Virus record (IMG/VR): IMGVR_UViG_3300041411_000090
Coordinates: 1 to 47,000 of that record
Source: a virus
DNA: 47,000 nt
Reading direction: 5' to 3' (one strand)
Positions 5,756 through 42,989 of the stretch are shown here, piece by piece (the stretch's first letter is position 1; each line of letters begins with the position of its first letter). The notes below the pieces were generated by a model, which saw nothing but the letters and a program-made list of their open reading frames with translations, ran no database searches and was not told where the DNA came from. The position numbers and the translations under genes were made by a program.

Positions 5756-5929
5756 ATGCTCACGCTTCCAGAGATCCAAGAAAAATTGAAGGGAACGAAC
5801 CTGTCTGAAGCAGCCAGAGAGACAGGTATTCACCCATCTATGATGTGGCGGATTGCCAACGAGCCGGAGCAGAACCCGCAATACAAGACGATCAAGAAGC
5901 TTTCCGATTACCTGGAGGCTCGCGCATGA
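5756..5929 (+). CDS. Small Cro-like HTH protein, 57 aa
   Basis: MLTLPEIQEKLKGTNLSEAA followed by RETGIHPSMMWRIAN forms a compact helix-turn-helix, then TIKKLSDYLEAR as a final helix. Size and layout are those of Cro/XRE-type mini-regulators. It is the first rightward gene after the divergent control region and ATGA-overlaps the next gene. It probably binds operators in that region; the sequence does not show which. Confidence 0.75.
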   Translation: MLTLPEIQEKLKGTNLSEAARETGIHPSMMWRIANEPEQNPQYKTIKKLSDYLEARA

Positions 5930-6327
5930 GCAATTGGGGGTTCGTCTACTGCTTAGGGAATGATGCAATACCGGATCTGCTAAAGATCGGGTTCACCACT
6001 AGATCGCCGATGCAGAGAGCAGAGGAGCTATCAAGAGCTAGCGGTGTACCAAAAGATTTTGAGGTTTACTTCTATATGGAGGTTCAGAACCCGTCAGAGA
6101 TAGAAGCTAGAATTCACAGGATTCTAGATAGCTACCGCACAAATGGACGAAGAGAGTTTTTTAACGTTTCTGACGAGACCGTTCTTGAGCTATTTGAGAA
6201 AATAGAGGATCAGCAAGGAATGATTGCAACGTCATACGCCTATGAATCCTTGCGCGCAGTTCGAGAATACGAACGCTCTCATCCTGGTCCGTTCGTAGGG
6301 ATGCGCATGGGCAAAACTGGAGCGTAG
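5926..6327 (+). CDS. T5orf172/GIY-YIG-like protein, 133 aa
   Basis: The N-terminal WGFVYCLGNDAIPDLLKIGF, then RAEELSRASGVP, EVYFYMEVQNPSEIEARIH and GRREFFNVSDETVLELF match the T5orf172 (DUF1768/MUG113-like) branch of the GIY-YIG nuclease superfamily. Here the FVYCL...KIG strand replaces the canonical GIY-YIG. Members are predicted nucleases or nucleic-acid binders of unknown phage role. The start is set by the ATGA overlap with the small HTH gene. Confidence 0.8.
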   Translation: MSNWGFVYCLGNDAIPDLLKIGFTTRSPMQRAEELSRASGVPKDFEVYFYMEVQNPSEIEARIHRILDSYRTNGRREFFNVSDETVLELFEKIEDQQGMIATSYAYESLRAVREYERSHPGPFVGMRMGKTGA

Positions 6328-16422: not shown

Positions 16423-16451
16423 TTGACCGCGCTAACCACGCGGTCTAACCT
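16423..16451 (+). promoter_or_regulatory. Possible promoter with internal inverted repeat
   Basis: TTGACC (16423-16428), 17 bp, TAACCT (16446-16451). A perfect 7-bp inverted repeat, GACCGCG (16425-16431) and CGCGGTC (16439-16445), spans the -35 and spacer. It could be an operator-covered promoter or a hairpin that slows transcription out of the preceding gene. Confidence 0.4.
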
Positions 16452-16481
16452 TCACAAACACACACGCAGGAGGGTGGAATC

Positions 16482-16649
16482 ATGTTTTATCTAGGCTTGT
16501 TCCTAATCGTTATAGTGATGGCAGCACTGTTCGTCTTCAGCTCGCTGCTGATCGGCGTCAGGATCACTACCATAATCTGGCTCACTGCTACGTTCGTAAT
16601 GGCGGCGTTTGCTTTCGGGTTTTATCAATTGATGGGTGGGACGTTATGA
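16482..16649 (+). CDS. Small membrane protein with two TM helices, 55 aa
   Basis: Two hydrophobic segments (about residues 3-25 and 30-50) separated by VRITT. A strong AGGAGGG site precedes the ATG, and the stop overlaps the next start. Function unknown; an inner-membrane location is inferred. Confidence 0.78.
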   Translation: MFYLGLFLIVIVMAALFVFSSLLIGVRITTIIWLTATFVMAAFAFGFYQLMGGTL

Positions 16650-16882
16650 TGCGCAAGGATGAGATTCAGGTTATCGGTGTTGCGAACATTTCGGATATTG
16701 CCTACTCGGTTGACTGCGAGAAAAAGGCCATGGCATTGATTCTTGAGATCGATAAGGCGCAGCAAGACGTAGGGTTCACCGAAGACCTGATCGTCACGCT
16801 AATCAGGGCAATGAAGAAAGAATATAAGGGCGACAAGATTGCGCTAGGTCAATTCAAAGACATGATTCAAGGAGTGCTGTAA
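16646..16882 (+). CDS. Hypothetical protein, 78 aa
   Basis: Charged helical protein (KKAMALILEIDKAQQDVGF, LIRAMKKEYKGD). Starts with ATGATG overlapping the upstream stop. Ends TAATG into the next gene. No family recognised. Confidence 0.75.
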   Translation: MMRKDEIQVIGVANISDIAYSVDCEKKAMALILEIDKAQQDVGFTEDLIVTLIRAMKKEYKGDKIALGQFKDMIQGVL

Positions 16883-17100
16883 TGGTCCCGTGCATTATCA
16901 AGTGGCAAGAAGGCAGCCCCGCACAATTCAAACCCGGCCAATTCCTTGTTTTCGAATCCGGCGAGTATGCGCTTGTAGGCAGCAATACGGCTATCACGTC
17001 AACGCAGAAGATCGTCAAGCATACGACGCTGATTGAGGGACATGAGTTGGAGTGGTTGCAGTCGATGGCGGTTGAGCGTTCGTTAGGAGTTAAGGCATGA
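16882..17100 (+). CDS. Hypothetical protein, 72 aa
   Basis: Small, probably beta-rich protein (PAQFKPGQFLVFESGEYALV) with a helical end. TAATG and ATGA overlaps with neighbours. Function unknown. Confidence 0.75.
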   Translation: MVPCIIKWQEGSPAQFKPGQFLVFESGEYALVGSNTAITSTQKIVKHTTLIEGHELEWLQSMAVERSLGVKA

Positions 17101-17303
17101 GCAAGTGGATTAGCTGCAAAGAAAGGATGCCGCACGATCTTGAGTCCTGCATAGTAGTACGTGAAGGACTGTGCCAGCCGTGCAATATGTACTGGGATAG
17201 CATCCGCGATTATTGGCGTCCTGATGGTTACGGATTTGAATCCAAGGAGCTATTCGTAGACATCACTCACTGGCAACCACTACCGGAGCCGCCAAAGAAA
17301 TGA
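17097..17303 (+). CDS. DUF551 protein, 68 aa
   Basis: MSKWISCKERMPHDLESCIV, then DYWRPDGYGF and ITHWQPLPEPPK is the textbook DUF551 layout. Unknown function; common in phages. It is closer to the family pattern than the copy at 3760-3966. Confidence 0.9.
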   Translation: MSKWISCKERMPHDLESCIVVREGLCQPCNMYWDSIRDYWRPDGYGFESKELFVDITHWQPLPEPPKK

Positions 17304-17494
17304 CAACCCTAATCGCAATCTACCTGGCAGTCGGGTTCTTCTCGTACTGGCCGGCTCTTTACAACTGGGATGCGTACGATCATTCAGCCGATGTGCGCTG
17401 GTATCACTTTATCGCAGCATGGGCTCTATGGTGCGTCTGCTGGCCTATTCGTTATGCGCAAGATGTCTGGTATTGGTGGAGGGCTAAGAAGTGA
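17300..17494 (+). CDS. Aromatic-rich membrane protein, 64 aa
   Basis: Begins with a hydrophobic helix (TLIAIYLAVGFFSYWPAL) and has a second Trp-rich hydrophobic stretch (WYHFIAAWALWCVCWPI) followed by a basic end, consistent with two membrane passes. ATGA overlap upstream, GTGA overlap downstream. Confidence 0.78.
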   Translation: MTTLIAIYLAVGFFSYWPALYNWDAYDHSADVRWYHFIAAWALWCVCWPIRYAQDVWYWWRAKK

Positions 17495-17682
17495 GCGATA
17501 AGCCGGTCGCGTATTGGTCGATTAGCCTTGATACTGAATGTCCGTCATGCGGTAAGGGCTTTGACCTTATTGAGGATGATGGATTCCGAGAGTGCGGAAT
17601 CAATCCGCTTGAACGCGCAAACGGATACGAAGCCACATGCCCGCACTGCGAGCATGAATTTCTGGTAGATCTGGAGTTTTAG
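17491..17682 (+). CDS. Zinc-ribbon protein, 63 aa
   Basis: CPSCGKGFDL and CPHCEHEFLVDL form a two-knuckle zinc ribbon around a variable middle. The GTG start overlaps the upstream TGA stop (GTGA). Function unknown; probably nucleic-acid or protein binding. Confidence 0.82.
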   Translation: MSDKPVAYWSISLDTECPSCGKGFDLIEDDGFRECGINPLERANGYEATCPHCEHEFLVDLEF

Positions 17683-17684
17683 CC

Positions 17685-17903
17685 ATGACCACAATCAACG
17701 ACCTAGACCAAATCAACACAATGGCGATGATGACCATGTGCGAGCTTGGGTATGCGCGGTATGAGCGGTTTCGTGCTGGGCTTAAGATGGATGATGAGGC
17801 TTGCGAGAAGCTGCGGCAGTTCGTGCATTCGAATGCTGATCGCGAGCATGAACTGGAATTGCGAATTAAATGTGCGCCGATGTACAAACCTATGGCATAC
17901 TAG
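17685..17903 (+). CDS. Hypothetical protein, 72 aa
   Basis: Helical, Met-rich start (INTMAMMTMCELGYARYERF) and an acidic helical end. It is the last gene of the accessory block. Its final codons contain the candidate promoter of the small RNA that follows. Confidence 0.72.
   Translation: MTTINDLDQINTMAMMTMCELGYARYERFRAGLKMDDEACEKLRQFVHSNADREHELELRIKCAPMYKPMAY
17893..17901 (+). promoter_or_regulatory. Extended -10 before small RNA 1
   Basis: TGG-CATACT inside the end of the preceding gene. A start about 6 nt downstream would begin the transcript almost exactly at the first stem of the RNA. Confidence 0.4.
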
Positions 17904-17905
17904 CC

Positions 17906-17977
17906 GCAAGCGATATCCCCCTCCGTCGCTTGCTGCACCTTTATACGCACCGTGAACCGTCCGGTGCGTATTTTTTT
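17906..17977 (+). ncRNA. Candidate small RNA 1 with C-rich anti-SD loop
   Basis: A perfect 8-bp stem, GCAAGCGA/TCGCTTGC (17906-17913, 17926-17933), displays a 12-nt loop containing CCCCCTCC. A short linker follows, then a strong terminator hairpin. The loop is complementary to GGAGGGG, the ribosome site used by the genes at 10273, 12353 and 12926. The layout (promoter, C-rich loop, terminator) resembles bacterial sRNAs that cover ribosome sites. Everything beyond the sequence and base pairing is inference. Confidence 0.45.
17943..17977 (+). terminator. Strong intrinsic terminator
   Basis: 10-bp perfect stem ATACGCACCG/CGGTGCGTAT with 9-nt loop and seven T. It ends the long accessory block and the candidate small RNA. 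Confidence 0.9.
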
Positions 17978-18035
17978 GCCTATTAAATGGCAGTTTTCGC
18001 GCAAATCAGCCAGAATATTAGCTTTTTAGGGCTTG

Positions 18036-18044
18036 TGGTATCAT
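18036..18044 (+). promoter_or_regulatory. Extended -10 before small RNA 2
   Basis: TGG-TATCAT within TTGTGGTATCAT, nearly identical to the early rightward promoter at 5714-5722. No open frame of reasonable length follows, only a noncoding stretch ended by a terminator. Confidence 0.45.
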
Positions 18045-18050
18045 TCTCGC

Positions 18051-18179
18051 TCCTGTCGCAGTACTCAGGAAACCCCGGCGAGATAGAGTACGGATTGACT
18101 CGGCGTAGGGTGAGACGCAGGTGATGTAGCTCTTGAAGCACTGATGTACTAGCCCAGCCTTAAAGAAGCTGGGCTTTTT
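18051..18179 (+). ncRNA. Candidate small RNA 2, about 130 nt
   Basis: Between an extended -10 and a strong terminator there is no convincing reading frame. The segment contains GTACTC/GAGTAC (18061-18066, 18086-18091), and TGATGTA twice around 18122 and 18142. It could be a regulatory RNA, the packaging recognition region ahead of the terminase genes, or both. The sequence alone cannot decide. Confidence 0.35.
18151..18179 (+). terminator. Intrinsic terminator before the holin gene
   Basis: AGCCCAGC/GCTGGGCT 8-bp stem, 9-nt loop, then TTTTT. Confidence 0.85.
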
Positions 18180-18228
18180 ATTGCCCGCCAAAAAGTGATA
18201 GCCACTAGCCACCGAACCGAAAATGATA

Positions 18229-18243
18229 CCATTGGTCCAATGG
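18229..18243. promoter_or_regulatory. Inverted repeat upstream of the holin gene
   Basis: CCATTGG-T-CCAATGG, a perfect 7-bp inverted repeat with a 1-bp centre, 25 bp before the holin start. It looks like an operator; no function is assigned. With the two candidate RNAs it accounts for the gene-free stretch 17904-18268. Confidence 0.45.
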
Positions 18244-18268
18244 ATACATTCCTTAAACCTAGACTCCC

Positions 18269-18589
18269 ATGAAGCCAAATAAAATGCCCGACTCCCCAAA
18301 CGGATTGTTTACGCTGCTATCCAACCTTCCGGGGCCACTCCAAGCATTTGGGGCGGCTATCATCACTGCGGTTTTGCGCGTTTACTACGACAAATCAGAG
18401 ACGAGTTGGCAGCGTGTAGGCCTTGAGGGTGCGTTGTGTGCGTGCCTGGCTACTGGGCTGTCGATGGTCAGCGCTTACTTCGGCCTCCCCGAAAACTCCG
18501 GCGTGTTCATCGGCACATTCGTCGGCTTCATCGGCGTGATTAAGTTCCGCGAGTACATGGGCAGGCTGCTGGATAAGAAGTCGAGCTGA
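18269..18589 (+). CDS. Lambda-type holin (phage_holin_3 family), 106 aa
   Basis: Three hydrophobic segments (about 25-45, 55-75, 80-95) with the family pattern SNLPGPLQAFGAAIITAVLR, VGLEGALCACLATGL, LPENSGVFIGTFVGFIGV and a charged C-terminus. It forms lesions in the inner membrane to time lysis. The N-terminus MKPNKMPDSPN offers two starts, Met1 and Met6, differing by two Lys, like the dual-start holin/antiholin of lambda S. It lies next to the terminase, not the endolysin. Confidence 0.88.
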   Translation: MKPNKMPDSPNGLFTLLSNLPGPLQAFGAAIITAVLRVYYDKSETSWQRVGLEGALCACLATGLSMVSAYFGLPENSGVFIGTFVGFIGVIKFREYMGRLLDKKSS

Positions 18590-18619: not shown

Positions 18620-19081
18620 ATGGCTAATAGACCAATCGTTCACACAGGGGATAAGACCTCTACAGTCGGGCGCTCAAGAATGTTTGAGACGCCTGATGAT
18701 TTGATGGCTGCGTGCCAAGAGTACCTAGACTGGAACAGCGCTAACCCTCTGATGGAGGAAAAGCCGTTCTGCTTCCAGGGTCAGATCATCATGGCCGAGA
18801 TTCCTAAGCCTCGTGCGCCATCCATCGTTGCCCTCTGCACCCATCTTGGCATTCATCGCCATACCTGGCAGAACTACCGTATCAGTGAAGAGTTCGACCT
18901 TGTTTGTGAAGAGGTTGAAGCCCGTATGCGCACGTACAAGTTCGAGCGCGCAGTTGCCGGCCTGATGAACTCGACGCTCATTGCCCGCGACCTTGGCCTT
19001 GTTGACAAGCAAGAGGTTAAGCACTCCAGCGACGGTACAATGTTGCCTAACCGTATCGAGCTAGTAGCAGGCAAGGAATGA
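18620..19081 (+). CDS. terS: Terminase small subunit (P22 gp3-like)
   Basis: 153 aa. Pattern GRSRMFETPDDLMAACQEYLDW, then ENPL-like SANPLMEEKPF, LGIHRHTWQNYRISEEF, FERAVAGLMNSTLIARDLGL and VDKQ matches the P22 gp3-type DNA-packaging family. It forms a ring that recognises the packaging start and stimulates TerL. The P22-type points to headful packaging. GGAGG precedes the ATG; the stop overlaps TerL. Confidence 0.9.
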   Translation: MANRPIVHTGDKTSTVGRSRMFETPDDLMAACQEYLDWNSANPLMEEKPFCFQGQIIMAEIPKPRAPSIVALCTHLGIHRHTWQNYRISEEFDLVCEEVEARMRTYKFERAVAGLMNSTLIARDLGLVDKQEVKHSSDGTMLPNRIELVAGKE

Positions 19082-20310
19082 GTACGGCGCAAATCCGTCT
19101 TCCTCCTAAGATGCTGGAGGTATTCAGCCATCCTCGCGGAACTGTTCGCTATCGTGGCGCAAGAGGTGGCCGAGGGTCGGGAAAATCCTTTTCATTCGCC
19201 AAGATGGCCGCTATCTGGGGCGTCATCGAGCCTCTGCGAATTCTATGTACTCGCGAACTCCAGGCATCGATCAAAGAGTCATTCCACGCTGAGCTAAAGA
19301 ACGCCATTGCGTCAGAGCCTTGGCTTGAGGCTGCGTATGACGTTGGCGTGGACTATCTGCGAGGGAAGAACGGGACAGAGTTCCTGTTTAAAGGTTTGCG
19401 CCATAACATCGGATCTATTAAGTCTTTGGCACAGATCGATCTATGTATCGTTGAAGAGGCTGAGGACGTCCCTGAGGCTTCGTGGCAAGCCTTAGAGCCA
19501 ACGATACGCGCTCCAGGCTCAGAGATATGGGTTGTCTGGAACCCGCGCCTCGATGGCAGCCCTGTAGACCATCGCTTCGTAAAGAACACGCCTCCGCGAT
19601 CCTGCATCGTGGAAATGAACTATTCCGACAATCCGTGGTTTCCGCTTGAGCTTGAGGAGCAGCGCCTTCACGCGCTCAAGACGATGGATAGCGCAACCTA
19701 TGCGCACATATGGGAGGGCGATTACCTTAGCCGTACTGATGCTCAAGTATTCGCCGGCAAGTCACGCATCGCCGACTTCGATCCTGGTCCTGACTGGGAT
19801 GGACCATACAACGGCCTCGATTTCGGGTTTGCGCAAGATCCTACAGCTGCCGTCAAGTGCTGGATTTATGAAGAACGGCTTTACATCGAGTATGAGGCCG
19901 GACGCATCGGTCTGGAGCTTGACGATACAGCCGCATACGTCAATGAGCGCGTGCCTGGATTCGCTGAGCATGCTGTACGCGCAGATTGTGCGCGTCCTGA
20001 GTCCATCAGCTACTTGAAGCGCCATGGGATGCCTCGCATTGAAGGCGTGACCAAGGGCAAGGGCAGCGTAGAAGACGGCGTAGAGCATATCAAGAGCTAT
20101 CAGGAGGTGGTTATTCACACCCGCTGCGTCAAGGTGCAGGAAGAGTTCAGGAAATACGGGTACAAGGTTGACCGACTTTCTGGCGACATCCTCCCGGTGA
20201 TCGTTGACGACTGGAATCACTACATTGACGCCATCCGTTACGCGCTTGAGCCTGTCATGAAGCTGAAGAACTCGGGCGGCGTTTTTCTCCCTCGGCGCAT
20301 GAGGTCTTGA
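19078..20310 (+). CDS. terL: Terminase large subunit (PBSX type)
   Basis: 410 aa. The ATPase domain has Walker A GGRGSGKS (30-37) and Walker B CIVEEAED (123-130). The RNase H-like nuclease domain begins at GLDFGFAQDP (246-255, D248), with later acidic residues in RADCARPES and DDWNHYIDAIRYAL. It pumps DNA into the prohead and cuts the concatemer. ATGA overlap with TerS. The stop is followed immediately by palindrome copy 4. Confidence 0.97.
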   Translation: MSTAQIRLPPKMLEVFSHPRGTVRYRGARGGRGSGKSFSFAKMAAIWGVIEPLRILCTRELQASIKESFHAELKNAIASEPWLEAAYDVGVDYLRGKNGTEFLFKGLRHNIGSIKSLAQIDLCIVEEAEDVPEASWQALEPTIRAPGSEIWVVWNPRLDGSPVDHRFVKNTPPRSCIVEMNYSDNPWFPLELEEQRLHALKTMDSATYAHIWEGDYLSRTDAQVFAGKSRIADFDPGPDWDGPYNGLDFGFAQDPTAAVKCWIYEERLYIEYEAGRIGLELDDTAAYVNERVPGFAEHAVRADCARPESISYLKRHGMPRIEGVTKGKGSVEDGVEHIKSYQEVVIHTRCVKVQEEFRKYGYKVDRLSGDILPVIVDDWNHYIDAIRYALEPVMKLKNSGGVFLPRRMRS

Positions 20311-20388: not shown

Positions 20389-20688
20389 ATGGCGACGGTT
20401 AAAGAACGAGAAGTGGTTAGCGAGATCATGAATCTTGCGTGTGACGTGAACGCGGAAGGTAGCGTATCGGTTAGCGTTGATGTGAATTCTAGCGCTCTCA
20501 CAATGCGGATTTCTCCTGTAGATATCAGTGATGCCCAAGACTGGAAGTGGATTTACTATCCAGAGCGTCCGGCATACTTCGAGAGTGAGGATTTCGGAAG
20601 CGAATATTTCTATGCTACAGCAGCAGAGTTTATTGACGAACTGAAGAAACACCACCCACAATTCGACGCGGACGGGGTTAAGTTATGA
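20389..20688 (+). CDS. Hypothetical protein, 99 aa
   Basis: Acidic protein: helical start (VKEREVVSEIMNLACDV), then alternating beta-like residues (GSVSVSVDVNSSALTM) and an aromatic segment. A strong GGAGG site. ATGA overlap into the next gene. Accessory gene behind its own promoter. Confidence 0.78.
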   Translation: MATVKEREVVSEIMNLACDVNAEGSVSVSVDVNSSALTMRISPVDISDAQDWKWIYYPERPAYFESEDFGSEYFYATAAEFIDELKKHHPQFDADGVKL

Positions 20689-21218
20689 GCATTCCAGCAG
20701 GGGCAACACACGTAGTTGTAGATATTTACAGTTTGCGGGACGAGCAAAAGGCAATGAACAACAAGTATCCGTACCGCAAGAAGGATGGAGATTTGTGGTT
20801 AGCATTCGTTGATGACGAATGGGTTAACGTATTGCTTCCTGATCCTTCTCGCTACCATCGGATCGAGAAGCAGTGGTCAGGCCCGCAAGATGGGTTGCCG
20901 CCAGTAGGTCTGCGCGTTGAAGTTCTATGGTCTAGTATCAAAGAAGAGTATGTGCAGGCACTTATCCTTGCGCATGACGAAGATCGCGCAGTATTCCGGT
21001 TCGTTACGGGTGGCCGCAAAGGCGAATATCAGGCGGACGAGTCGAAGTTCAGTAGCAACAAAATGCTGCCTAACTTCCGGCCGTTGAAAACCGCAGAACA
21101 ACTAGCCGCCGAACAACGCGAAACCGCAATCCGCGAGATCATGGATATTGCCGATGTGGATTGCCGGGTTACTGCGGCTAGATTGGTTGATGCTGGGTTT
21201 AAGCGGGAGGTGGTTTGA
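20685..21218 (+). CDS. Hypothetical accessory protein, 177 aa; paralogue of 9719-10228
   Basis: Shares with 9719-10228 the module PPVGLRVEVLW...QALILAHDEDRAVFRF...NFRPLKTAEQLAAEQ...IADVD...AARLVDAGFKRE. The N-terminal 60 residues are unrelated (GATHVVVDIYSLRDEQ). Same module on different heads suggests domain shuffling among phage accessory genes. Function unknown. Confidence 0.8.
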   Translation: MSIPAGATHVVVDIYSLRDEQKAMNNKYPYRKKDGDLWLAFVDDEWVNVLLPDPSRYHRIEKQWSGPQDGLPPVGLRVEVLWSSIKEEYVQALILAHDEDRAVFRFVTGGRKGEYQADESKFSSNKMLPNFRPLKTAEQLAAEQRETAIREIMDIADVDCRVTAARLVDAGFKREVV

Positions 21219-21487
21219 TGGGTATTTATCTGGATACGAACAGCGCGTTTTATGATTGGTGCGAAGCTAACGGCTACGACGAAGACACCGAATACGATAG
21301 AGAGGAAGAGGTGCATAAGCGTGGCGCTCATGTAACTTGGTACATTCGAAAGGAGGCTGATGATACATACGCTCAAGTCTTTGCTTATCAGGATTACGAT
21401 AATGGCCGTGATCAGATCGAAATCGAGATAGAAGGACTTAAGCGGGTAGAGAAACAGGTGACGACAACAACCGTCGTTTACGAGTAA
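21218..21487 (+). CDS. Acidic accessory protein, 89 aa (twin of 22561-22833)
   Basis: Pattern YLDTNSAFYDWCEANGYDED, EEEVHKRGAH, DDTYAQVF, and the end EGLKRVEKQVTTTTVVYE. About 60% of residues match the gene at 22561. Start at ATG overlapping the upstream TGA (TGATG). The two twins lie on either side of the inverted MuF gene in the same orientation. Function unknown; very acidic, so possibly a DNA mimic (speculative). Confidence 0.82.
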   Translation: MGIYLDTNSAFYDWCEANGYDEDTEYDREEEVHKRGAHVTWYIRKEADDTYAQVFAYQDYDNGRDQIEIEIEGLKRVEKQVTTTTVVYE

Positions 21488-21492
21488 AACAA

Positions 21493-21515
21493 AAGGCCCT
21501 CTAAACAAGGGCCTT
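21493..21515. terminator. Bidirectional terminator
   Basis: AAGGCCCT/AGGGCCTT 8-bp stem with 7-nt loop between convergent genes. The minus-strand side is followed by a T-rich tract, the plus side only weakly. Confidence 0.65.
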
Positions 21516-21525
21516 GACTTTATCT

Positions 21526-21587
21526 AAAACACCATTTCCCATCTGTCCACGATCCATAAACCGTGGACATTTGAGATTTGGTGTTTT
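21526..21587. repeat. 62-bp nested inverted repeat next to the MuF stop
   Basis: Outer arms AAAACACCA (21526-21534) and TGGTGTTTT (21579-21587); inner arms TGTCCACG (21544-21551) and CGTGGACA (21562-21569); 9-nt internal loops and a 10-nt apex. It starts 1 bp after the MuF stop codon. In the minus transcript it forms a long hairpin ending in TTTT: a second terminator, an mRNA-stabilising 3' structure, or a remnant of an insertion. Confidence 0.7.
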
Positions 21588-21588
21588 C

Positions 21589-22494
21589 TCATTTGTCAAG
21601 TTTGCGCTTGGCTCGCTCGATGATTCCTGGGGATAGTGGGTTTCCTTTGTCGTCGACAAGTACAGATACGGTCGAGCACTTGCAGTTGATACTTTGGCCA
21701 GAGATAGCCCACCATGCGCGCTGATCAGCTACAGAATGCAAGGTTCCATGACGAGCACGGTGATTCGGCCTAGTGGTCGGTGACAACGCGCTCAAGTGGA
21801 GCTCAAGCGTCTTAATACCGAGATCAACCCGAGCAGTCTCAGCCTCATCCATCCGTGCTTGACGGAAGGCGTTACCAACTTCGGTACGGGCAATTCGTTC
21901 GCCACGACGCTGGTTGACTCCAGTACTAGCCGCAATGTCTTTAGCAATAACACGCGGGTTGAGACCTGCAATCATGCCTCTGGTCAATGCGCCCGCTAGA
22001 TCCGTCTTAGCCTGAGCCGTAAACCCTTTCATCAGCTCAAACTCTCGCGCACGTAGAAGGCCGATACGCTTCCTGTATGGCTCGCTAAATAGGATCGCGT
22101 CAAGCGATGGCTTTGTAAGCGCGTACAGTTCGCTTTGTACGGTCAGGTTGGCCGCCTGCACAGCCGTACCCTGGATGTATGCAGGCTCTACATAGGCGCG
22201 CATACTCCACAGCTCTTGCTCGCCACCTTCCAGCAGGATCAGTTCTGCGATCCGCTCAATCTCGCTATTGATTCCCAGCAAGATCGCCTGGTCAAGCTCA
22301 AATTGGTAGCTTGTGGCATTTTGCTGCATGGCGTTGAGAGTGACGACGGTGTAGTTCTGTTCGCGGAGAATCCTAAGAACCTCCTTGCCTACAGCAGCTA
22401 CACGCCTGTCAAAGTCACGTATGAATTTTCTCTCCCTACTATCCTGCATCGTTGGATCATCGAGTGTTCTAGGAAGCACGGGAGAAACGGCCAT
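21589..22494 (-). CDS. MuF-like minor head / head morphogenesis protein, 301 aa
   Basis: The SPP1 gp7/Mu gpF domain is visible: LTRGMIAGLNPRVIAKDIA, TGVNQRRGERIARTEVGNAF, ALSPTTRPNHRARHGTLHS and INCKCSTVSVLVD. It acts at the portal vertex during capsid assembly. Start set at MAVSPVLPRTL, with AGGA 7 nt upstream; a longer frame would run antisense through the plus-strand twin gene. It is on the opposite strand from terminase and capsid, downstream of an also inverted portal. Confidence 0.9.
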   Translation of the reverse strand: MAVSPVLPRTLDDPTMQDSRERKFIRDFDRRVAAVGKEVLRILREQNYTVVTLNAMQQNATSYQFELDQAILLGINSEIERIAELILLEGGEQELWSMRAYVEPAYIQGTAVQAANLTVQSELYALTKPSLDAILFSEPYRKRIGLLRAREFELMKGFTAQAKTDLAGALTRGMIAGLNPRVIAKDIAASTGVNQRRGERIARTEVGNAFRQARMDEAETARVDLGIKTLELHLSALSPTTRPNHRARHGTLHSVADQRAWWAISGQSINCKCSTVSVLVDDKGNPLSPGIIERAKRKLDK

Positions 22495-22560
22495 AAATAA
22501 TCCTTGCGTCATTCGTTTATCTTGCGTTAGATTGTACGCGAATCCACTGGAGGCTACAAA

Positions 22561-22833
22561 ATGACCACGATTTACTTGGGCGGCAACTCGGCTTACGAAG
22601 AATGGTGCGACGCCAATGGCTACAACGGCGAAGACCAGCACGACTATGAGGAAGAGGTTTACAAGCGCGGCTCGCATCAGAGCTTCTACATCAAGAAGGA
22701 GGAAGACGACACTTACGCGCTCGTTACCTGTAGCGCTGATTACGACTGGGGCCGAGACGATATCGAGATCCAGAAAGAAGGCCTTAAGCGAACAGAGAAG
22801 CAGGTAACGACAACCGCAGTCGTTTACGAGTAA
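22561..22833 (+). CDS. Acidic accessory protein, 90 aa (twin of 21218-21487)
   Basis: MTTIYLGGNSAYEEWCDANG, EEEVYKRGSHQSFYIKKEED, DDIEIQKEGLKR and TEKQVTTTAVVYE. The last 45 codons and the terminator stem that follows are close to the twin at nucleotide level, indicating a duplication. It stands alone between two minus-strand structural genes. GGAGG precedes the ATG. Function unknown. Confidence 0.82.
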   Translation: MTTIYLGGNSAYEEWCDANGYNGEDQHDYEEEVYKRGSHQSFYIKKEEDDTYALVTCSADYDWGRDDIEIQKEGLKRTEKQVTTTAVVYE

Positions 22834-22837
22834 AAAG

Positions 22838-22863
22838 AAAGGCCTCAATTAAGAGGCCTTTTT
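22838..22863. terminator. Bidirectional terminator between twin gene and portal
   Basis: AAAGGCCTC/GAGGCCTTT, perfect 9-bp stem, 6-nt loop, T run on the plus side and TTTCTTTTT on the minus side. It serves the convergent plus gene and portal. Confidence 0.8.
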
Positions 22864-24237
22864 CTATTGCACGGTTGCCGGATCTTCTGGCTCTGGCTCG
22901 ATGTCAGGTAGCGGCGTCAACTCGTTAGCCGTATATTCGTAGCCAGACGCCTCGATCATCCGCTTGATGCTGAACACCAGCTCTCCGCTCGCAAGCATCT
23001 TCTGGTTGACATCGGCCATGAGCACGACGTTAGCCAGCATTTCACTCTGAGATGCTTCTGTAAGGTCATTCCAGCAAACGCTAGTCTCGACAGTCAGCAG
23101 CACACCCAGTCGCATCAGATGATCAACAAACGTCTCGATGTCCGACGACAACAGGCTAACCCGACGACCCTGGCAGCGCTTATTGAATGTCTTCTGATCC
23201 TCTGTAGATGCGCGCTCGCCAGTCTGATTGCCGACGATGATCTTAGAAGGGATGCGGATGGATGCACAGAAGGATTGCAGGGATACGTCGAAGGCTGGAT
23301 ACGGATCAGGAACGGTAGCAACGAGAGGGCTAACAGTCGCGCCTTGAGTGATGATCGTCTGGTCAATGCCTTTCGACATGCCAACCGTCACTTCGTTAAA
23401 AATCTCCTGCAAGTCGCCAACTGGAACGCCGTGCGCACGTGCGATCTGGTCTAGCTGAACATCCTTCTCAAAGTTGATTGCCAGTTGACGGCTAGCGTTC
23501 TTCAGGAAGGATTCGCCTGAGCCACCCAGCACTTTCTCCATATTCACGCAATCATTGTAACCGGCTAACAGGAACGGAATCCCGTTACGCATATCGCCAA
23601 CAACAACTACGCGGTCTGGATGCACAGTGATAATGCGGCCTGGCTCAGCATTGAAGTTGTCATTCAGCGCATTTTCGCAATACTCGAAAGTCTTTGGCTT
23701 TCCGAAGTTAGCGTCTGCTGGGTTGTCGTACCAAGACGTAACCTTGATTTGACCTTCCCAGGCAACGATCAGGTTAATCAATTGCTGCTCAGATGCCTTG
23801 CCTACAGGCTGATCCCACTGTTTCGAGTCCTTGAATTGCAGGAGGATGCACGAGTACCGGCCAACGAGACGGCGCATATCCGCATCGCGGAATTTCTCCC
23901 ACAGCTTCAGGCGCTTGGCTAGCTTCTTGAATTGTTTCTCCCATGCAGTAGGAGCCTCTGCGCGATCTTCCTCGTCACCTTCGATAACCTCTGGATCCGA
24001 GCTGAAACATGATTCATTCAGTGTCATCACCGCGCCGTGAGCAATACCGCCACGCTCGAATAGGCGGTAGAAGTCACTGAAGCACAGATGTTCTTTGTAG
24101 CCGTAGCTGCACCAGGAATTTGGGCGGGCTGCATCGATGCTGCCACTCATAAGCGACTGACGAGACATCAACGTCGCCCGCTCGCTCAATGCCGAGTTCA
24201 GCGCCAAATCTAGTGCAGGCGTGCGTTTCACAGTCAT
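22864..24237 (-). CDS. Portal protein (DUF1073-like), 457 aa
   Basis: Resembles the DUF1073 portal group: SWCSYGYKEHLCFSDFYRLF, GIAHGAVMTLNESCF, RYSCILLQFKD, VHPDRVVVVGD, then the C-terminal SFCASIRIPSKIIVGNQTGE and KTFNKRCQGRR. It forms the dodecameric channel through which DNA is packaged and ejected. Unusually it is on the minus strand, 2.5 kb after a plus-strand TerL, and has its own promoter. Confidence 0.9.
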   Translation of the reverse strand: MTVKRTPALDLALNSALSERATLMSRQSLMSGSIDAARPNSWCSYGYKEHLCFSDFYRLFERGGIAHGAVMTLNESCFSSDPEVIEGDEEDRAEAPTAWEKQFKKLAKRLKLWEKFRDADMRRLVGRYSCILLQFKDSKQWDQPVGKASEQQLINLIVAWEGQIKVTSWYDNPADANFGKPKTFEYCENALNDNFNAEPGRIITVHPDRVVVVGDMRNGIPFLLAGYNDCVNMEKVLGGSGESFLKNASRQLAINFEKDVQLDQIARAHGVPVGDLQEIFNEVTVGMSKGIDQTIITQGATVSPLVATVPDPYPAFDVSLQSFCASIRIPSKIIVGNQTGERASTEDQKTFNKRCQGRRVSLLSSDIETFVDHLMRLGVLLTVETSVCWNDLTEASQSEMLANVVLMADVNQKMLASGELVFSIKRMIEASGYEYTANELTPLPDIEPEPEDPATVQ

Positions 24238-24263
24238 AAAATAGGGCCTCGTAAATTACCTAC

Positions 24264-24272
24264 ATTCTACCA
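24264..24272 (-). promoter_or_regulatory. Extended -10 promoter of the portal gene
   Basis: Minus strand TGG-TAGAAT, about 27 bp before the portal start. On the other strand the very next bases (24273-24278) are the TTGACG -35 of the divergent accessory promoter. Confidence 0.55.
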
Positions 24273-24301
24273 TTGACGCGGATTCGGATTGAGGCTAAGG
24301 T
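24273..24301 (+). promoter_or_regulatory. Promoter TTGACG-N17-TAAGGT
   Basis: -35 TTGACG (24273-24278), 17 bp, -10 TAAGGT (24296-24301), driving the 247-aa accessory gene, back to back with the portal promoter. Confidence 0.55.
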
Positions 24302-24328
24302 TTGCGTACTTTAAATGGAGGGCTGGAC

Positions 24329-25072
24329 ATGGGTAGCTTGGTAGAAATTTTGGCGGCAGAGTTGACAGAATGGCCTGTAGGCCAGACCGCATTTTGGTGC
24401 GATCCTGATAACGAGATTCGCGGTGTTACTGGTTACGGGTATGACTTTCGCCCGAAAGGCCGCGTAGACGAGCAAGATCGTGGAAAATTCTTTGGAGATG
24501 AATCTGTTTGCACTGTAACCAAGCAGGAATGGGAAGCGGCGCGAATCATAAGCCAGCCACAAGCGGAGGAAGTAGAGGTGCATATCCCGAATGCGAAAAC
24601 TGTAGAAGCAATGGATGCCACTGATCGCGGTGAAGGCCGTACATTCAATAGCGCACAAGATCTTTATGCTGCTCTGGATATTACTTCTAAAGCCAAGACA
24701 GACCAAATCGACGGCCCGATCAAATGGCGCGACGAAGTAACTGAGCTTAACGCCTACATCGATAAATTCACCCGCGAGCGTGATGCGCTGATCGAGCTTC
24801 TAGCTAGCGAAGGGTTTGCATTGATTCCGCCAGTGGCTAGCGTTATGTCTGAGTTCGATGTCGCTGACATGAGCGATTGGCTCAACTGGAAAGTCGGCGA
24901 TATCGTTGAGGTTATCGCTAATATGGGTGGGCACGAGTTCAATATCGGTGATCGTGTCCACGTTGTACGTATTGATCTAAAAGATTCAAAATACCGAATT
25001 GAGGCACAGCTAGGCGATGGTGATGATTGGTGGCTTTTAGAAAGCGATGCAAAATGGATTAGCCGCCCATAA
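24329..25072 (+). CDS. Accessory protein with RelB/DinJ-like segment and SH3-like tail, 247 aa
   Basis: Start MGSLVEILAAEL is set by GGAGGG 7 nt upstream. Residues about 85-115 (VHIPNAKTVEAMDATDRGEG, then FNSAQDLYAALD) read like the C-terminal half of a RelB/DinJ antitoxin. A helical linker follows, then KVGDIVEVIANMGGHEFNIG...DRVHVVRID, a probable SH3-like barrel. No toxin partner is visible nearby. An anti-toxin defence-evasion role is possible but only inferred. Standalone gene with promoter and terminator. Confidence 0.78.
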   Translation: MGSLVEILAAELTEWPVGQTAFWCDPDNEIRGVTGYGYDFRPKGRVDEQDRGKFFGDESVCTVTKQEWEAARIISQPQAEEVEVHIPNAKTVEAMDATDRGEGRTFNSAQDLYAALDITSKAKTDQIDGPIKWRDEVTELNAYIDKFTRERDALIELLASEGFALIPPVASVMSEFDVADMSDWLNWKVGDIVEVIANMGGHEFNIGDRVHVVRIDLKDSKYRIEAQLGDGDDWWLLESDAKWISRP

Positions 25073-25093
25073 CTACCACCAGCAACACAAAAG

Positions 25094-25115
25094 ACCCTGC
25101 TTCGGCGGGGTTTTT
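25094..25115 (+). terminator. UUCG-tetraloop terminator
   Basis: ACCCTGC-TTCG-GCGGGGT stem (one G-U pair) closed by TTCG and followed by TTTTT. It insulates the accessory gene from the capsid operon. Confidence 0.88.
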
Positions 25116-25158
25116 CTTTTGCTGTATCATATGGGCTATCTATTGGAGGGCTAGCCCT

Positions 25159-26478
25159 GTGAAAAAAACGCGTGTAAATATCCTGTCGGCGGTTAACGCT
25201 GACTCGATCAAGATTGAGCGCACGGAGGTAGCTGGCGAGAAGTACGCGGTTATCAAGAACGTGCTGTGGATGAAAGACAACATTGTCTTAAACGATGGCC
25301 TGTACTCTTCGTCTGAGAATGCAAAGGGTTATGCCTCGATGGATGGCCGCGTCATGCCTTTTGGTCATCCAGAGGTTAACGGTCAATACGTCGCTATTAG
25401 CTCGCTAGACAACGCTGATGTAGCGGTGGCGCTAGGCAAGCACTATGGCGGTGTTCACGCTCAGAACGTGCGACAGGCTGGCGAAGAGTACTTTGCCGAC
25501 GTGATGATCAACGAGCGAGTTGCTAAGTCCCATCCGGACGGCGAAATGCTGCTGAATTGGGTTGGCAAGGCTGAGGACTACCAAGTCAACGGCGCCGCTA
25601 AACCAGATCCGGTGCATATGTCTACCGGCCTTATGACTGCTCGCGTCAACGCTAAAGGCGAGTCTCGCGGCAAGTCGTATAGTTGGATCGCCACTCAGCA
25701 GTCCTACGACCACCTGGCAATCCTGTTCCACGAGCAAGGCGCTGGCGGTGACGAGGTTGCAATCGCGGTTAACTGCGAGTCGGTCATTAACTCTGTGTTG
25801 CCAACCGTCAATGAAGAAGTTCTAGATGATTCTTACGGCGAGAAGATGGCCGTACTGAGTGCCGCAGTTAAAGAGAGATTCGCAACTGTAGACGCATATG
25901 CATACGTTGAAGACTTCGACGACCGAACTTTGATCTATTGCACACCAGAAGGCACGTATAAGATCAGCTATCACTACGAGGGTGATAACCCGATTCTCAC
26001 TGGTAGTCCTGAGCAAGTTGAGCGCGAAACCAAGTACGTGACTAAAAACGTGTCTGCAATTGAGCGTTTGCGTTCCGTGCTAAAATATTTCAGTACCAAA
26101 ACTAAACAGCCTGTTGTGCAGGTTAATACTCCCGAGGAACAAGATATGACCCCTGAAGAAGTTCAGGCCATCGTTGATAAGGCAGTGGGCGCAGCAGTTG
26201 ATGCAGTGAACCTCAAGCTGAACTCTTCAGAGGCTCAAGTAAAATCGTTGCAAGACGCATTGCAAGCTAACTCCGACTCGCTGTTGAAAGACAAACGCGC
26301 CGCAGTAGCAAAAGTTCACGGCGAAGTTGTTGCAAACGCCTTGAGCGGTGAAGCTCTGGACGCAATGTTCGCTAGCGTGCAAACCGCCGCTGGCATCTTG
26401 TCTGGCTCCGTTGCAACCAACGCCAAAGACGAGTTCGAAGGCTATAGCTTGAACCAAGCTGATCAGGAGGCCAAATAA
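25159..26478 (+). CDS. Capsid maturation protease-scaffold fusion (DUF2213-like), 439 aa
   Basis: The N-terminal about 200 residues (NDGLYSSSENAKGYASMDGR, MPFGHPEVNGQYV, DPVHMSTGLM) match DUF2213-type prohead proteases, with H and S residues suited to catalysis. The C-terminal about 110 residues (DMTPEEVQAIVDKAVGAAVD...SSEAQVKSLQDALQANSDSL) form a coiled coil as in scaffold proteins. GTG start with GGAGGG upstream. An internal ATG with its own ribosome site lies at 26146. Confidence 0.87.
   Translation: MKKTRVNILSAVNADSIKIERTEVAGEKYAVIKNVLWMKDNIVLNDGLYSSSENAKGYASMDGRVMPFGHPEVNGQYVAISSLDNADVAVALGKHYGGVHAQNVRQAGEEYFADVMINERVAKSHPDGEMLLNWVGKAEDYQVNGAAKPDPVHMSTGLMTARVNAKGESRGKSYSWIATQQSYDHLAILFHEQGAGGDEVAIAVNCESVINSVLPTVNEEVLDDSYGEKMAVLSAAVKERFATVDAYAYVEDFDDRTLIYCTPEGTYKISYHYEGDNPILTGSPEQVERETKYVTKNVSAIERLRSVLKYFSTKTKQPVVQVNTPEEQDMTPEEVQAIVDKAVGAAVDAVNLKLNSSEAQVKSLQDALQANSDSLLKDKRAAVAKVHGEVVANALSGEALDAMFASVQTAAGILSGSVATNAKDEFEGYSLNQADQEAK
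26078..26086 (+). promoter_or_regulatory. Internal extended -10 upstream of the nested scaffold start
   Basis: TGC-TAAAAT within CGTGCTAAAAT, 60 bp before the internal ATG at 26146. Same class as 28725, 29635 and 32320; here it lies inside the protease-scaffold gene. Confidence 0.4.
26146..26478 (+). CDS. Probable nested scaffold protein, 110 aa (internal start)
   Basis: Met330 of the protease-scaffold gene is preceded by GAGGAAC at 8-nt spacing and lies exactly where the linker ends and the coiled coil begins (MTPEEVQAIVDK). This parallels lambda C/Nu3, where a scaffold is made from an in-frame internal start. It would supply excess scaffold for HK97-type capsid assembly. Confidence 0.55.
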   Translation: MTPEEVQAIVDKAVGAAVDAVNLKLNSSEAQVKSLQDALQANSDSLLKDKRAAVAKVHGEVVANALSGEALDAMFASVQTAAGILSGSVATNAKDEFEGYSLNQADQEAK

Positions 26479-26915
26479 TGGCTAACGTTATCTGGCGTGG
26501 TCCTGTGCATCTTGCACAGCCTGATTCGCGCACTCTGAAGTTCACCGCTTCGACCCTGCCTGGCTTGGCGGTTTCGATCACTACCGGTCAGTTTGTAGTG
26601 GCGGCAACTTCGAAGGTTGACTTCTTCATCACCCACAACCGCGCCTACATCGGCGAAACCGTGGACACCGCGATCCCTGCTGGCGAAACCGGCGAAGCAT
26701 TCAAGCCTGTTCCTCAGTACGAGTTCCAGGTTCGCATGGCTGCCGCAACCTACGCTCCAGGCGCAGTGTTGAGCATCGTCAACGGCCAGTTCAAGGCCGC
26801 TGTTACTGGTGAAGTCGCTGTAGCCGCTTTCGACGAAGCTGCCTCCCGAGCTGTCGGTGCCAACGGTCTTGCCGACGTTCGTATCCTCGCTAACTCCTAC
26901 GTGGTGCCTGCATAA
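26478..26915 (+). CDS. Capsid decoration protein (probable), 145 aa
   Basis: Beta-rich, Ala/Val/Thr-rich protein: RTLKFTASTLPGLAVSITTG, then GETVDTAIPAGETGEAFKP and AAFDEAASRAVGANGLADV. Position between scaffold and major capsid protein (TAATG overlaps on both sides) and size fit head decoration/cement proteins. Assignment rests mainly on context. Confidence 0.8.
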   Translation: MANVIWRGPVHLAQPDSRTLKFTASTLPGLAVSITTGQFVVAATSKVDFFITHNRAYIGETVDTAIPAGETGEAFKPVPQYEFQVRMAAATYAPGAVLSIVNGQFKAAVTGEVAVAAFDEAASRAVGANGLADVRILANSYVVPA

Positions 26916-27925
26916 TGCCTATTCTGACTTTTAACAAAGAGCAAGAGGCTGCCGTTATTGGCAAGCGTCGCGCTCACAACGCCCGTCAAGAGCGACTCGC
27001 ACGAGATAGCGAAGGCGAGATGATTGGTAACGCCTACACCATTCCTCGGGATGCCTGGGCTACCTACGACAACGATCTGATCACCTTGCAGCGCGCACAG
27101 CTTGGCGTGTTCACTGACTTGGCCAGCCTGCAAAAGAACGTGCCAATCGGTAAGGTTCTGCAATACTTCTCCAAGGTCGGCGACCAAGGCGAAGTGAACA
27201 GTTCGATTGATGGCCGCAGCCGTGCGAAAGCCGACGCTCCAGTCATTGATTACGAAGGCACTCCGCTGCCGATCTACGACACTACCTTCACCTTCGGCTG
27301 GCGCGATGTTGAAGCCGCTCGTCAAGACGGTGGCTGGCAGTACCTGGATGCCGCTACTCGCGACAACGGCAACCGCCGCATCGTTGAGAAGCTGGAAGAC
27401 CTCGTGATCAACGGCGACACCAAGTTCAACGTAGCTGGCAACCAGATCTATGGTCTGCGTACCGCTCCAGGCCGTGCTACCGGTAACTTCGGTAACGTCG
27501 ATCTGGTAACTGCTACCGGCGCCCAGTGGGTTGAAGCGATCAAGCGTGTTCTTCTCGGCCTGCAAGCCAAGAATTACTACGGCGGCGCTACCATCTACCT
27601 GAACTACGGTGACTGGTTCGCCGCATCGGTTAACGACTACGTTACCGCCGCGCCTCAGAACACCATCCTGGCTCGCTTGATGGCGATTCCTGGTGTTGTC
27701 TCCATCGTCCCATCCACCGCTGTTCCAGTGAACGAAATCCTCGCCGTCGTGAAAGAGCGCCGAGTGCTGGAAATCCTGACTGCGATGCCTGTTACCACCA
27801 TGCCGATTGAACGTAAAAACTTCACCGACGAGTACAGCTTCCAGATCATGACCGCAGTAGCGCCGCAGTTCAAGCGCGACATGGCTGGCAATGCTGGTTA
27901 CGCGCAGTTCGTTAAAGGCGCATAA
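26915..27925 (+). CDS. Major capsid protein, 336 aa
   Basis: Pattern IPRDAWATYDNDLITLQRAQ, GVFTDLASLQKNVPIGKVL, YDTTFTFGWRDVEAA, NRRIVEKLEDLVINGD and YSFQIMTAVAPQFKRDMAG matches phage major capsid proteins of the HK97 fold. Length and position after the protease-scaffold and decoration genes agree. Followed by a strong terminator. Confidence 0.93.
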   Translation: MPILTFNKEQEAAVIGKRRAHNARQERLARDSEGEMIGNAYTIPRDAWATYDNDLITLQRAQLGVFTDLASLQKNVPIGKVLQYFSKVGDQGEVNSSIDGRSRAKADAPVIDYEGTPLPIYDTTFTFGWRDVEAARQDGGWQYLDAATRDNGNRRIVEKLEDLVINGDTKFNVAGNQIYGLRTAPGRATGNFGNVDLVTATGAQWVEAIKRVLLGLQAKNYYGGATIYLNYGDWFAASVNDYVTAAPQNTILARLMAIPGVVSIVPSTAVPVNEILAVVKERRVLEILTAMPVTTMPIERKNFTDEYSFQIMTAVAPQFKRDMAGNAGYAQFVKGA

Positions 27926-40717: not shown

Positions 40718-42810
40718 TGACTAATACTTACGACACTAGCGACCAACCCCTAGGCTCGACATCCGTAAAGGTTCTGTACAACAACGCATCGAACTTTGAT
40801 GACGCGTTGAATGGCCCAGCTCTCGAATGGGAGGACCGAAGAGGCGAAATCCGGCAAAGCTGGGAGGGCATTGAAGCGGCTGTAGCGTCCTTCCTCGCGA
40901 ATTCCGGCTATCAGTACATCGGCCCTTACGCGACCGGGTTGACAGTGGGCGCGCCGAATCAGATTTTCCTTTACAACGGCGAATACTGGCGCGCTGCTGC
41001 ATCAACTTCTCTGCCTTATACGCTGACAGGCGTGCCGGCGACGGATATCCCGCTATTCGTTAGCGTAGGAGATGCAGTCATTCGCAGCGAACTAGCCGCA
41101 GCGGGTGGGGCTAAGCTGATTGGTAACGGCATTCAGGTTGTAACGTCATTCGCCGCACTCCGCGCCTTGCTCAAAACTTCGCCGTCTAAATTCGCGTTGC
41201 TGTCGCAGACAGGCAGCTTCTACTACCTAGACACGGTGGATACGACTACGCCCGACGACGGCGGATTGACCATCGTCGCCGGGGATGGCGGGCGGTGGAA
41301 GTTGCCGCTTGGCAACGCCGTTTACGTCAGTCAGTTTGAGAGCTTGGCTCAGGCGCTCGCGTCTAGTGAGAAGTCACTTACATTCGGCCCTGGTAACTAC
41401 TCGGTTACGGCTTCGACGACATGGCCCGCAGGCAAGACGTATAACTTCGAAGCCGGCGCCCTGGTCACAGTGACAGCAGGTCAAACCCTGACGATTCGCG
41501 GCGTGGTAACCGCGCCGCCGCTGCAGATCTTCGCAGGTTCAGTAGTAGGCATTCGGGAGGTGTGGGTTCAGTGGTTCGGCCAGGGGTTGACCTCTGATGA
41601 TCAGCCGGCCTGTCAAGCCGCTCACGATTGCTCTAAAGACGGTCTAGCGTCTGACGGTACGGCTTTCGCTGTACACCTTGGCAATACGATGAACCTAGGA
41701 TCAACACTTGTCCTTACCCCAACTGTAAACTTCCCGCTCCGTCTGATAGGCCATGGCTCCGCGTTAGGATGCCGCTTTGTGGCTAACGCCTCCTTCTCTG
41801 GTGCCTCTGTCCTCTCCTTGGACGGTAACGCCGATAATACTCAAGCAATCCAAGCATTTGATATCCGAGGCTTCTCGGTAGCCAAGGATCCAGCTAATAC
41901 GACTACTTTCGCCGGCTGGCAGATCGGCACAGCCGGGAAGAAGCTCAGCGGGTTTAAAGAGTCACTGATCGAAGACGTGCATATCGAGGGGTTTTCGTTT
42001 AACTGGATTATCAACGATACGCGCCTAGTGAAATTTGCAAGGTGCTCCGGATGGAGCGACAACGTTCCGAACAGCGTAGGGTGTCTCATTACTACTACTT
42101 CTGCCGCGACTTTTACAGGAGACCTCGATTTTGATTCCTGCCAATGGGTTGCTCCGTCCGGTAGCGGTAAAGGGATGAGCATCTACAACACTATATCCGG
42201 GGCGCAGATCAAAGGGATTCGCCTGAATGGGCAGATCCATTACCACGGCGAACGGTATTTCGAGATTTACGCTACGAATGGCGCCGTGATCGGGGATATC
42301 TGGCTAGGTGGCGGTTTCCAGTGCGATGGCGTTGGTCAAAACATGATTTGGATTCAGGCCGCTGGTGCGGGTACGCAGCTCGACAATATCAACTTGAGTC
42401 AGGTGTACACCCGCGGCGTTTCGGCCGGCTATCGCGCCCTGACGATTATCGGCGACGGCACCGCGCTGTTGAGGAACATCAAGGTAGACGGTCACTGGTT
42501 CGCCAACTGCGATAGCGCTCCGGCCTATGTGCAGAACGCCACAGCGGTAGACTTCATTAACCCGCAGTTCACCGACGTGACCGACGTGACCGGCTCGTGC
42601 ATCCTGTTCGATAACTGCCAGCGTAGTGGCGTAGTTGGTGGCAACTTGTCCCGCAGTGGAGGCCAGGTGATTGCGTACTTCGTAACGTTCGGCGCTGGAT
42701 GTAACTACTACCGCGCATCTTTGAACACCGCAGGCGGTATTGTTTCTGGGTTAGTAGTCAGGGACTTGGCGGCAGGAGCAAACAAGTCAATTGATGTAGG
42801 GAATATGTAA
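40717..42810 (+). CDS. Tailspike with beta-helix fold, possible depolymerase, 697 aa
   Basis: The start is fixed by the TAATG overlap. The N-terminal head-binding region (about 1-130) includes KVLYNNASNFDDALNGP. A central right-handed beta-helix follows, with repeated short strands (SLAQALASSEKSLTFGPGNY, DIRGFSVAKD, SGAQIKGIRLNG, TQLDNINLSQVYTRG, LRNIKVDGHWF), ending in a beta-sandwich-like tail. Pectate-lyase-type spikes degrade capsule or O-antigen; the active site cannot be placed from sequence alone. Last gene of the tail operon. Confidence 0.87.
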   Translation: MTNTYDTSDQPLGSTSVKVLYNNASNFDDALNGPALEWEDRRGEIRQSWEGIEAAVASFLANSGYQYIGPYATGLTVGAPNQIFLYNGEYWRAAASTSLPYTLTGVPATDIPLFVSVGDAVIRSELAAAGGAKLIGNGIQVVTSFAALRALLKTSPSKFALLSQTGSFYYLDTVDTTTPDDGGLTIVAGDGGRWKLPLGNAVYVSQFESLAQALASSEKSLTFGPGNYSVTASTTWPAGKTYNFEAGALVTVTAGQTLTIRGVVTAPPLQIFAGSVVGIREVWVQWFGQGLTSDDQPACQAAHDCSKDGLASDGTAFAVHLGNTMNLGSTLVLTPTVNFPLRLIGHGSALGCRFVANASFSGASVLSLDGNADNTQAIQAFDIRGFSVAKDPANTTTFAGWQIGTAGKKLSGFKESLIEDVHIEGFSFNWIINDTRLVKFARCSGWSDNVPNSVGCLITTTSAATFTGDLDFDSCQWVAPSGSGKGMSIYNTISGAQIKGIRLNGQIHYHGERYFEIYATNGAVIGDIWLGGGFQCDGVGQNMIWIQAAGAGTQLDNINLSQVYTRGVSAGYRALTIIGDGTALLRNIKVDGHWFANCDSAPAYVQNATAVDFINPQFTDVTDVTGSCILFDNCQRSGVVGGNLSRSGGQVIAYFVTFGAGCNYYRASLNTAGGIVSGLVVRDLAAGANKSIDVGNM

Positions 42811-42820
42811 GCAATAATAA

Positions 42821-42848
42821 AAACCCCGCTCACAAGGCGGGGTTTCTT
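42821..42848. terminator. Bidirectional terminator between tailspike and minus operon
   Basis: AAACCCCGC/GCGGGGTTT, 9-bp stem with 7-nt loop; TTTCTTTT on the plus side and TTTTTATT on the minus side. Confidence 0.88.
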
Positions 42849-42977: not shown

Positions 42978-42989
42978 AGTTTGTGATCA

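Follow-up and report, generated by a model that had tools for sequence, protein, structure and literature searches.

The head genes of tailed phages usually run in one direction and in a near-fixed order, which is often explained by co-transcription and co-assembly. IMG/VR virus record IMGVR_UViG_3300041411_000090 raises the question of how a phage lineage can depart from this arrangement. In the window, which is the entire 47,000-base record, the genes for the portal protein and a MuF-like head morphogenesis protein lie on the minus strand, opposite to the terminase, scaffold-position and capsid genes. Our reading, to which we give a probability of about 75%, is that the portal-MuF pair underwent one ancient inversion in place, and that the inversion has been kept across a virulent-looking lineage of siphophages, to which the window belongs and whose head genes form separate promoter-driven units and are freely exchanged one at a time.

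The portal and MuF genes are inverted as one block

Open reading frames (ORFs) and protein family searches bore out the strand alternation described in the initial annotation, with two head genes on the minus strand and the others on the plus strand:

18620-19081, plus strand: terminase small subunit TerS (phrog_606, E 1e-41; PF16677)
19078-20310, plus strand: terminase large subunit TerL (phrog_3717, E 5e-60; PF04466), one of three TerL groups in close relatives
21589-22494, minus strand: MuF-like head morphogenesis gene, inverted (phrog_758, E 1e-92; PF04233), likely start ATG 22494
22864-24237, minus strand: portal protein gene, inverted (phrog_146, E 4e-86; PF06381)
25159-26478, plus strand: phrog_760 protein in the scaffold/protease position (E 2e-79)
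26478-26915, plus strand: head decoration protein (phrog_766)
26915-27925, plus strand: major capsid candidate (DUF6260; PF19774, E 2e-60)

The listed minus-strand MuF ORF (21589-22848, 419 amino acids) is over-extended, with homology only from residue 119 on. Translation probably starts at ATG 22494, which leaves room for a plus-strand gene at 22561-22833. No close isolate matching the window was present in the phage collection.

The claim that the usual gene order is kept did not hold. Between TerL and capsid, MuF comes first in the window and portal second, which mirrors the order in colinear relatives (JBD44, locus L006; 102 loci). Compared with the ES18/JBD44-type order TerL-portal-MuF-scaffold-capsid, the portal-MuF pair is inverted as one block. 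A plus-strand gene does split MuF from portal in the window, as had been noted, but this is not a general trait: in many relatives the two genes are neighbours on the minus strand, with nothing more than a hairpin or an overlap at their junction.

The inversion is fixed throughout one lineage

About 150 loci of relatives were collected through portal searches and one pattern search, and their strands were mapped by tblastn; near-duplicate loci are excluded from the counts. The portal was inverted in 51 loci and colinear in 102. Among the 51, MuF lay off the contig in three and on the capsid strand in two (DDSR119 and L027), and was inverted together with the portal in the remaining 46. Five of the inverted-portal loci are GenBank phages (MR14, Torfinnsbu, DDSR119, vsMR and SF3). 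Wherever the portal was at least 66% identical to that of the window and the strand could be judged, it was inverted. Scans with the DDSR119 and Torfinnsbu portals as single proteins yielded no additional inverted loci, and a scan of bacterial genomes returned colinear relatives only, at 48% identity or less.

The inverted arrangement is real and fixed throughout one lineage, because the relatives, including GenBank phages, carry the same strand arrangement. An assembly artefact, raised in the initial annotation as the way in which the inversion might prove false, has next to no probability: all close relatives have the inversion, and the loci with both genes inverted come from many different metagenomes as well as from independently sequenced GenBank phages.

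Three further observations concern the portals of these relatives. In L153, L155, L156, L158, L162, L163 and L167, which are otherwise close relatives, the same inverted slot is taken by a portal of a second type with 40-41% identity. Two portal genes occur in the Streptomyces phage SF3 record (L005, NC_028952), whose head cluster is close to that of Pseudomonas phages; the record may be a mixed assembly. Public records label some genes of the portal family (H19, H45, H130) as anti-CBASS Acb1-like or as methyl-accepting chemotaxis protein, which are probably misannotations.

The inversion most likely arose once and in place

Maximum likelihood trees were used to count changes of orientation. 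In the MuF tree the whole inverted lineage is a single clade (support 100%) that branches from within the colinear MuFs. The inverted rows fall on one side of a branch in the scaffold tree (94%, one change) and in the tree of a first portal set (one change). The TerL and capsid trees need seven and three changes and are unusable for this count, because both genes have been exchanged. With the portal tree rooted at its midpoint, the colinear arrangement is most likely ancestral, since the deepest portal group (34-36% identical) is also colinear. These trees suggest that the inversion most likely happened once and in place: in the common ancestor the portal-MuF pair would have turned around within an ES18/JBD44-type head cluster and stayed inverted ever since. 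The sister relationship of DDSR119 and L027 (support 99/90) implies one later return of MuF alone to the capsid strand.

That the pair was inverted several times independently would fit some other results. When the portal set was enlarged by the seven contigs with the second portal type, the unconstrained tree needed two changes, with the L032 and L046 portals weakly joined to colinear ones, and the inverted rows did not form a single clade. MuF orientation, moreover, switched at least once more, in DDSR119 and L027. We nevertheless hold repeated inversion to be quite improbable, given the fully supported MuF clade and the finding that a single inverted clade passes the approximately unbiased test for the larger portal set (p-AU 0.54).

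There might also have been no inversion in place, if the resident pair was displaced by the portal and MuF genes of a related phage, taken up in reverse orientation. Such a replacement would suit a lineage that exchanges genes singly and in which a second portal type occupies the same inverted slot in seven contigs. It is nonetheless unlikely, as portal and MuF share their single lineage split with the scaffold-position gene, itself not inverted; this is expected if all three descend together.

A phase-variable segment that switches portal orientation was rejected as well. A long inverted repeat does lie at the left edge of the block (21526-21587), but its two arms form one local hairpin and do not flank the block. 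No convincing inverted repeats flanking the portal-MuF block were found in the window, no close relative was colinear, and neither a tyrosine integrase nor a large serine recombinase was found. With a single orientation and no flanking repeats, such switching is extremely improbable.

Separate promoter-like elements precede the head gene units

Because the strands alternate, a single transcript cannot span all head genes and separate promoters are needed, as the initial annotation had argued. Elements resembling promoters are present and conserved:

22531-22536, minus strand: -10-like TACAAT upstream of MuF; GTACAAT also in the insert-bearing loci L012, L013, L020, L026, L099, L153 and L167
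24264-24269, minus strand: -10 TAGAAT of the proposed portal promoter, extended and preceded by TGG, position conserved among inverted portals
24273-24301, plus strand: proposed divergent promoter of accessory gene f1, TTGACG-17 nt-TAAGGT, complement visible in most close relatives
25125-25130, plus strand: -10-like TATCAT upstream of the scaffold-position gene; about half of 31 distinct sequences upstream of the scaffold in the inverted lineage have a comparable element

Of 34 distinct inverted sequences, 33 have a TATAAT-like element 31-41 nt before the portal gene begins, as opposed to 2 of 73 colinear ones (shuffled controls, 24% and 10%, respectively). In the window the portal -10 element stands back to back with the f1 promoter. 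It could be recognised only through comparison of relatives; a sigma-70 consensus scan of the window gave fewer sites than shuffled sequences and was of no help, and scanning the portal -10 motif across the window produced no convincing genome-wide set of copies.

Bidirectional terminators had been proposed as separators of the MuF and portal genes. Hairpins of this kind were found at 21493-21515 and 22838-22861; the interval 24237-24329 is a divergent promoter region. The hairpins around the block are:

21493-21515, both strands: terminator-like bidirectional hairpin between the convergent genes f10a and MuF, 97-100% identical in several relatives even with differing neighbours
21526-21587, both strands: conserved long hairpin lying 3' of MuF; arms of 26 nt, TGTCCACGGTTTATGGATCGTGGACA as the core (21544-21569)
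22838-22861, both strands: bidirectional terminator hairpin between f10b and portal (fold z -3.4 and -4.3)
25090-25115, plus strand: terminator-like hairpin after f1 (terminator scan)

Taken together, the first two reach a fold z of about -8 on each strand.

Among close relatives the portal-MuF junction occurs in two states. In the first, the portal gene ends close to MuF: its stop codon, a short hairpin (AAAGGCCCTACGGGGCCTTT, for example) and the ribosome site of MuF all fall within 40-55 bases, as in what may be an attenuated two-gene unit. In the second, represented in the window by f10b, an inserted plus-strand gene, a terminator and a divergent promoter region separate the two genes, so that MuF has its own promoter-like element (GTACAAT, TTGTACAAT or GCTAAAAT upstream of MuF). 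We propose that the portal, and MuF behind it, would be read leftward from the extended -10 promoter that is back to back with a rightward one. This minus-strand unit would stop at the bidirectional hairpins on meeting the rightward genes, and the head proteins encoded on the two strands would come together in the cytoplasm in the ordinary way. We also considered loss of a Q-type antiterminator as the cause of the separate promoters and rejected it: PF06530 and PF03589 were found in only a few colinear relatives, and as these families are rare even there, their absence is uninformative.

The portal is present in 12 copies and the capsid protein in hundreds, and the separate promoters had been connected in the initial annotation with balancing the two. 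Portal and scaffold/capsid do have separate promoter-like elements. However, 102 colinear loci manage without the inversion, and in DDSR119 and L027 MuF is back on the capsid strand; that the inversion is an adaptation of portal and capsid dosage is hence a doubtful explanation. Its clearest correlates are integrase loss and gene-by-gene exchange.

Head genes of the inverted lineage are exchanged singly

A tyrosine integrase was found in none of 14 inverted relatives and not in the window, versus 12 of 14 colinear relatives (Fisher p 6e-6). The inverted lineage thus looks virulent, although some records may be incomplete and absence is not proof.

Exchange was measured in genome pairs with portals 70-98.5% identical, by counting those in which a partner gene was less than 60% identical (ranges are from a genome bootstrap). 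MuF fell below this threshold in 53% of inverted pairs (39-63%) and 8% of colinear pairs (3-15%), the scaffold in 34% (22-44%) and 0%, and TerL in 74% and 39%. For the capsid, the values of 23% and 12% were not distinguishable. Nucleotide comparison revealed dissimilar stretches interrupted by short conserved islands that coincide with gene edges and terminators, as would be expected for recombination at boundary sequences. Insulated genes or gene pairs flanked by such sequences could then be exchanged singly between co-infecting relatives. The TerL genes of the window (19078-20310), L012, L025, L019 and L095 belong to three very different groups despite closely similar portals.

Homing endonucleases that use the same slots plausibly help this exchange. 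Endonuclease genes adjoin exchanged head genes in several relatives, and none was seen in the window's own head region. In relatives, the f6 endonuclease (phrog_681, with T5orf172 and CapR domains) may occupy the slot between MuF and portal, and an HNH endonuclease is often found in the one that precedes the scaffold. That endonucleases drive the exchange is a suggestion from gene neighbourhoods to which we give slightly less than even odds. More tentatively, the alternating, insulated architecture may itself permit portal, MuF, scaffold and terminase, whose products interact physically, to be swapped gene by gene, with homing endonucleases driving the exchange.

Several points, including the unconstrained larger portal tree, weigh against our reading of one inversion with separate units and free exchange. 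The sampled inverted lineage is one clade, so that only one comparison ties insulation and virulence to exchange. The proposed portal promoter has no clear -35 box, and the activity of the portal, MuF and f1 promoters is predicted from sequence. The gene in the window's own slot, f10b, encodes no recognisable endonuclease.

A large and diverse lineage with reversed portal and MuF genes, apparently under separate promoters, suggests that co-transcription of head genes is not required. The same protein families occur in both colinear and inverted relatives and allow a direct comparison, which makes it testable whether operon organization limits the mosaicism of interacting proteins.

Accessory genes and other features of the locus

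The plus-strand accessory genes around the inverted block are:

20389-20688, plus strand: f2, function unknown, family of 20 ORFs, same place in relatives
20685-21218, plus strand: f0 (phrog_3483), function unknown, family of 26 ORFs, same place and always on the capsid strand
21215-21487, plus strand: f10a, 62% identical paralogue of 22561-22833 (blastp)
22561-22833, plus strand: f10b, an insertion separating MuF from portal; about half of the relatives have nothing in this slot, others f6 endonuclease or f9
24329-25072, plus strand: f1, function unknown, family of 25 ORFs in relatives; ORF listed from TTG 24302, likely start ATG 24329

The paralogues f10a and f10b lie on either side of the inverted MuF gene and point the same way. 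f10b is absent from the same place in close relatives and has a clear 3' terminator hairpin.

About 20 related contigs have the long hairpin of 21526-21587 in the corresponding position; as it is present in a single copy, its interpretation as a mobile repeat was rejected. On the minus strand it has an invariant loop and is highly conserved in L009, L014-L017, L019, L021, L022, L025, L098, L100 and others, beyond what a plain terminator needs. Another palindromic element (of the AGTCCTAGGAC type) takes this site 3' of MuF in some relatives, and a GTGACGGTCAC palindrome does so in distant ones. A search against Rfam gave no match in the window.

Elsewhere in the window, the replication region contains HNH/endonuclease VII-like genes and a gene weakly similar to homing endonucleases (89-1201, 5845-6327). 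The genome is otherwise dense, but no long ORF lies on the plus strand in the intervals 16430-18270 and 42810-43770.

Comparison with known systems

No earlier description of the inversion was found in the open literature, subscription papers lying outside the scope of the search, and the passages found in the Torfinnsbu (PMC11780129) and SF3 (PMC5336643) papers do not remark on it. Genes inserted between terminase and portal have been described in colinear phages (PMC7302621).

Marker exclusion by phage homing endonucleases is established, and HNH genes of this kind are known from Skunavirus (PMC12724721). Like SegF/SegG of T4 and the Skunavirus HNH genes, the relatives of the window carry HNH and T5orf172-type genes beside portal, MuF and scaffold, with exchanged neighbours. 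This is a likeness of gene content and position, and the window differs in that its own slot genes are not recognisable endonucleases.

f10b resembles morons in sitting between conserved genes and in being missing there in close relatives. A terminator hairpin and a promoter-like element accompany it, and a promoter of f10b itself is putative. It is unlike morons in that its insertion site is within an inverted block, its strand is opposite to that of the genes on either side, and the lineage looks virulent.

The closest architectural counterpart is the head cluster of ES18/JBD44/phi297/SPN3UB-type phages, which has the same portal (PF06381), MuF (phrog_758), phrog_760 and decoration families, with portals about 44-46% identical to that of the window. 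There, TerL, portal, MuF, scaffold and capsid follow on one strand with median gaps of about 200, 60 and 8 bp, whereas in the inverted lineage portal and MuF are reversed and the gaps are gene-filled, at about 1950, 240 and 1100 bp. The tyrosine integrase expected of a temperate ES18/JBD44-type genome was not found in the window. The same inversion as in the window is found in Pseudomonas phages MR14, Torfinnsbu, DDSR119 and vsMR and in the SF3 record, at portal identities of 43-51%. In MR14, portal and MuF overlap on one strand, opposite to terminase and capsid; in DDSR119, unlike the window, only the portal is inverted.

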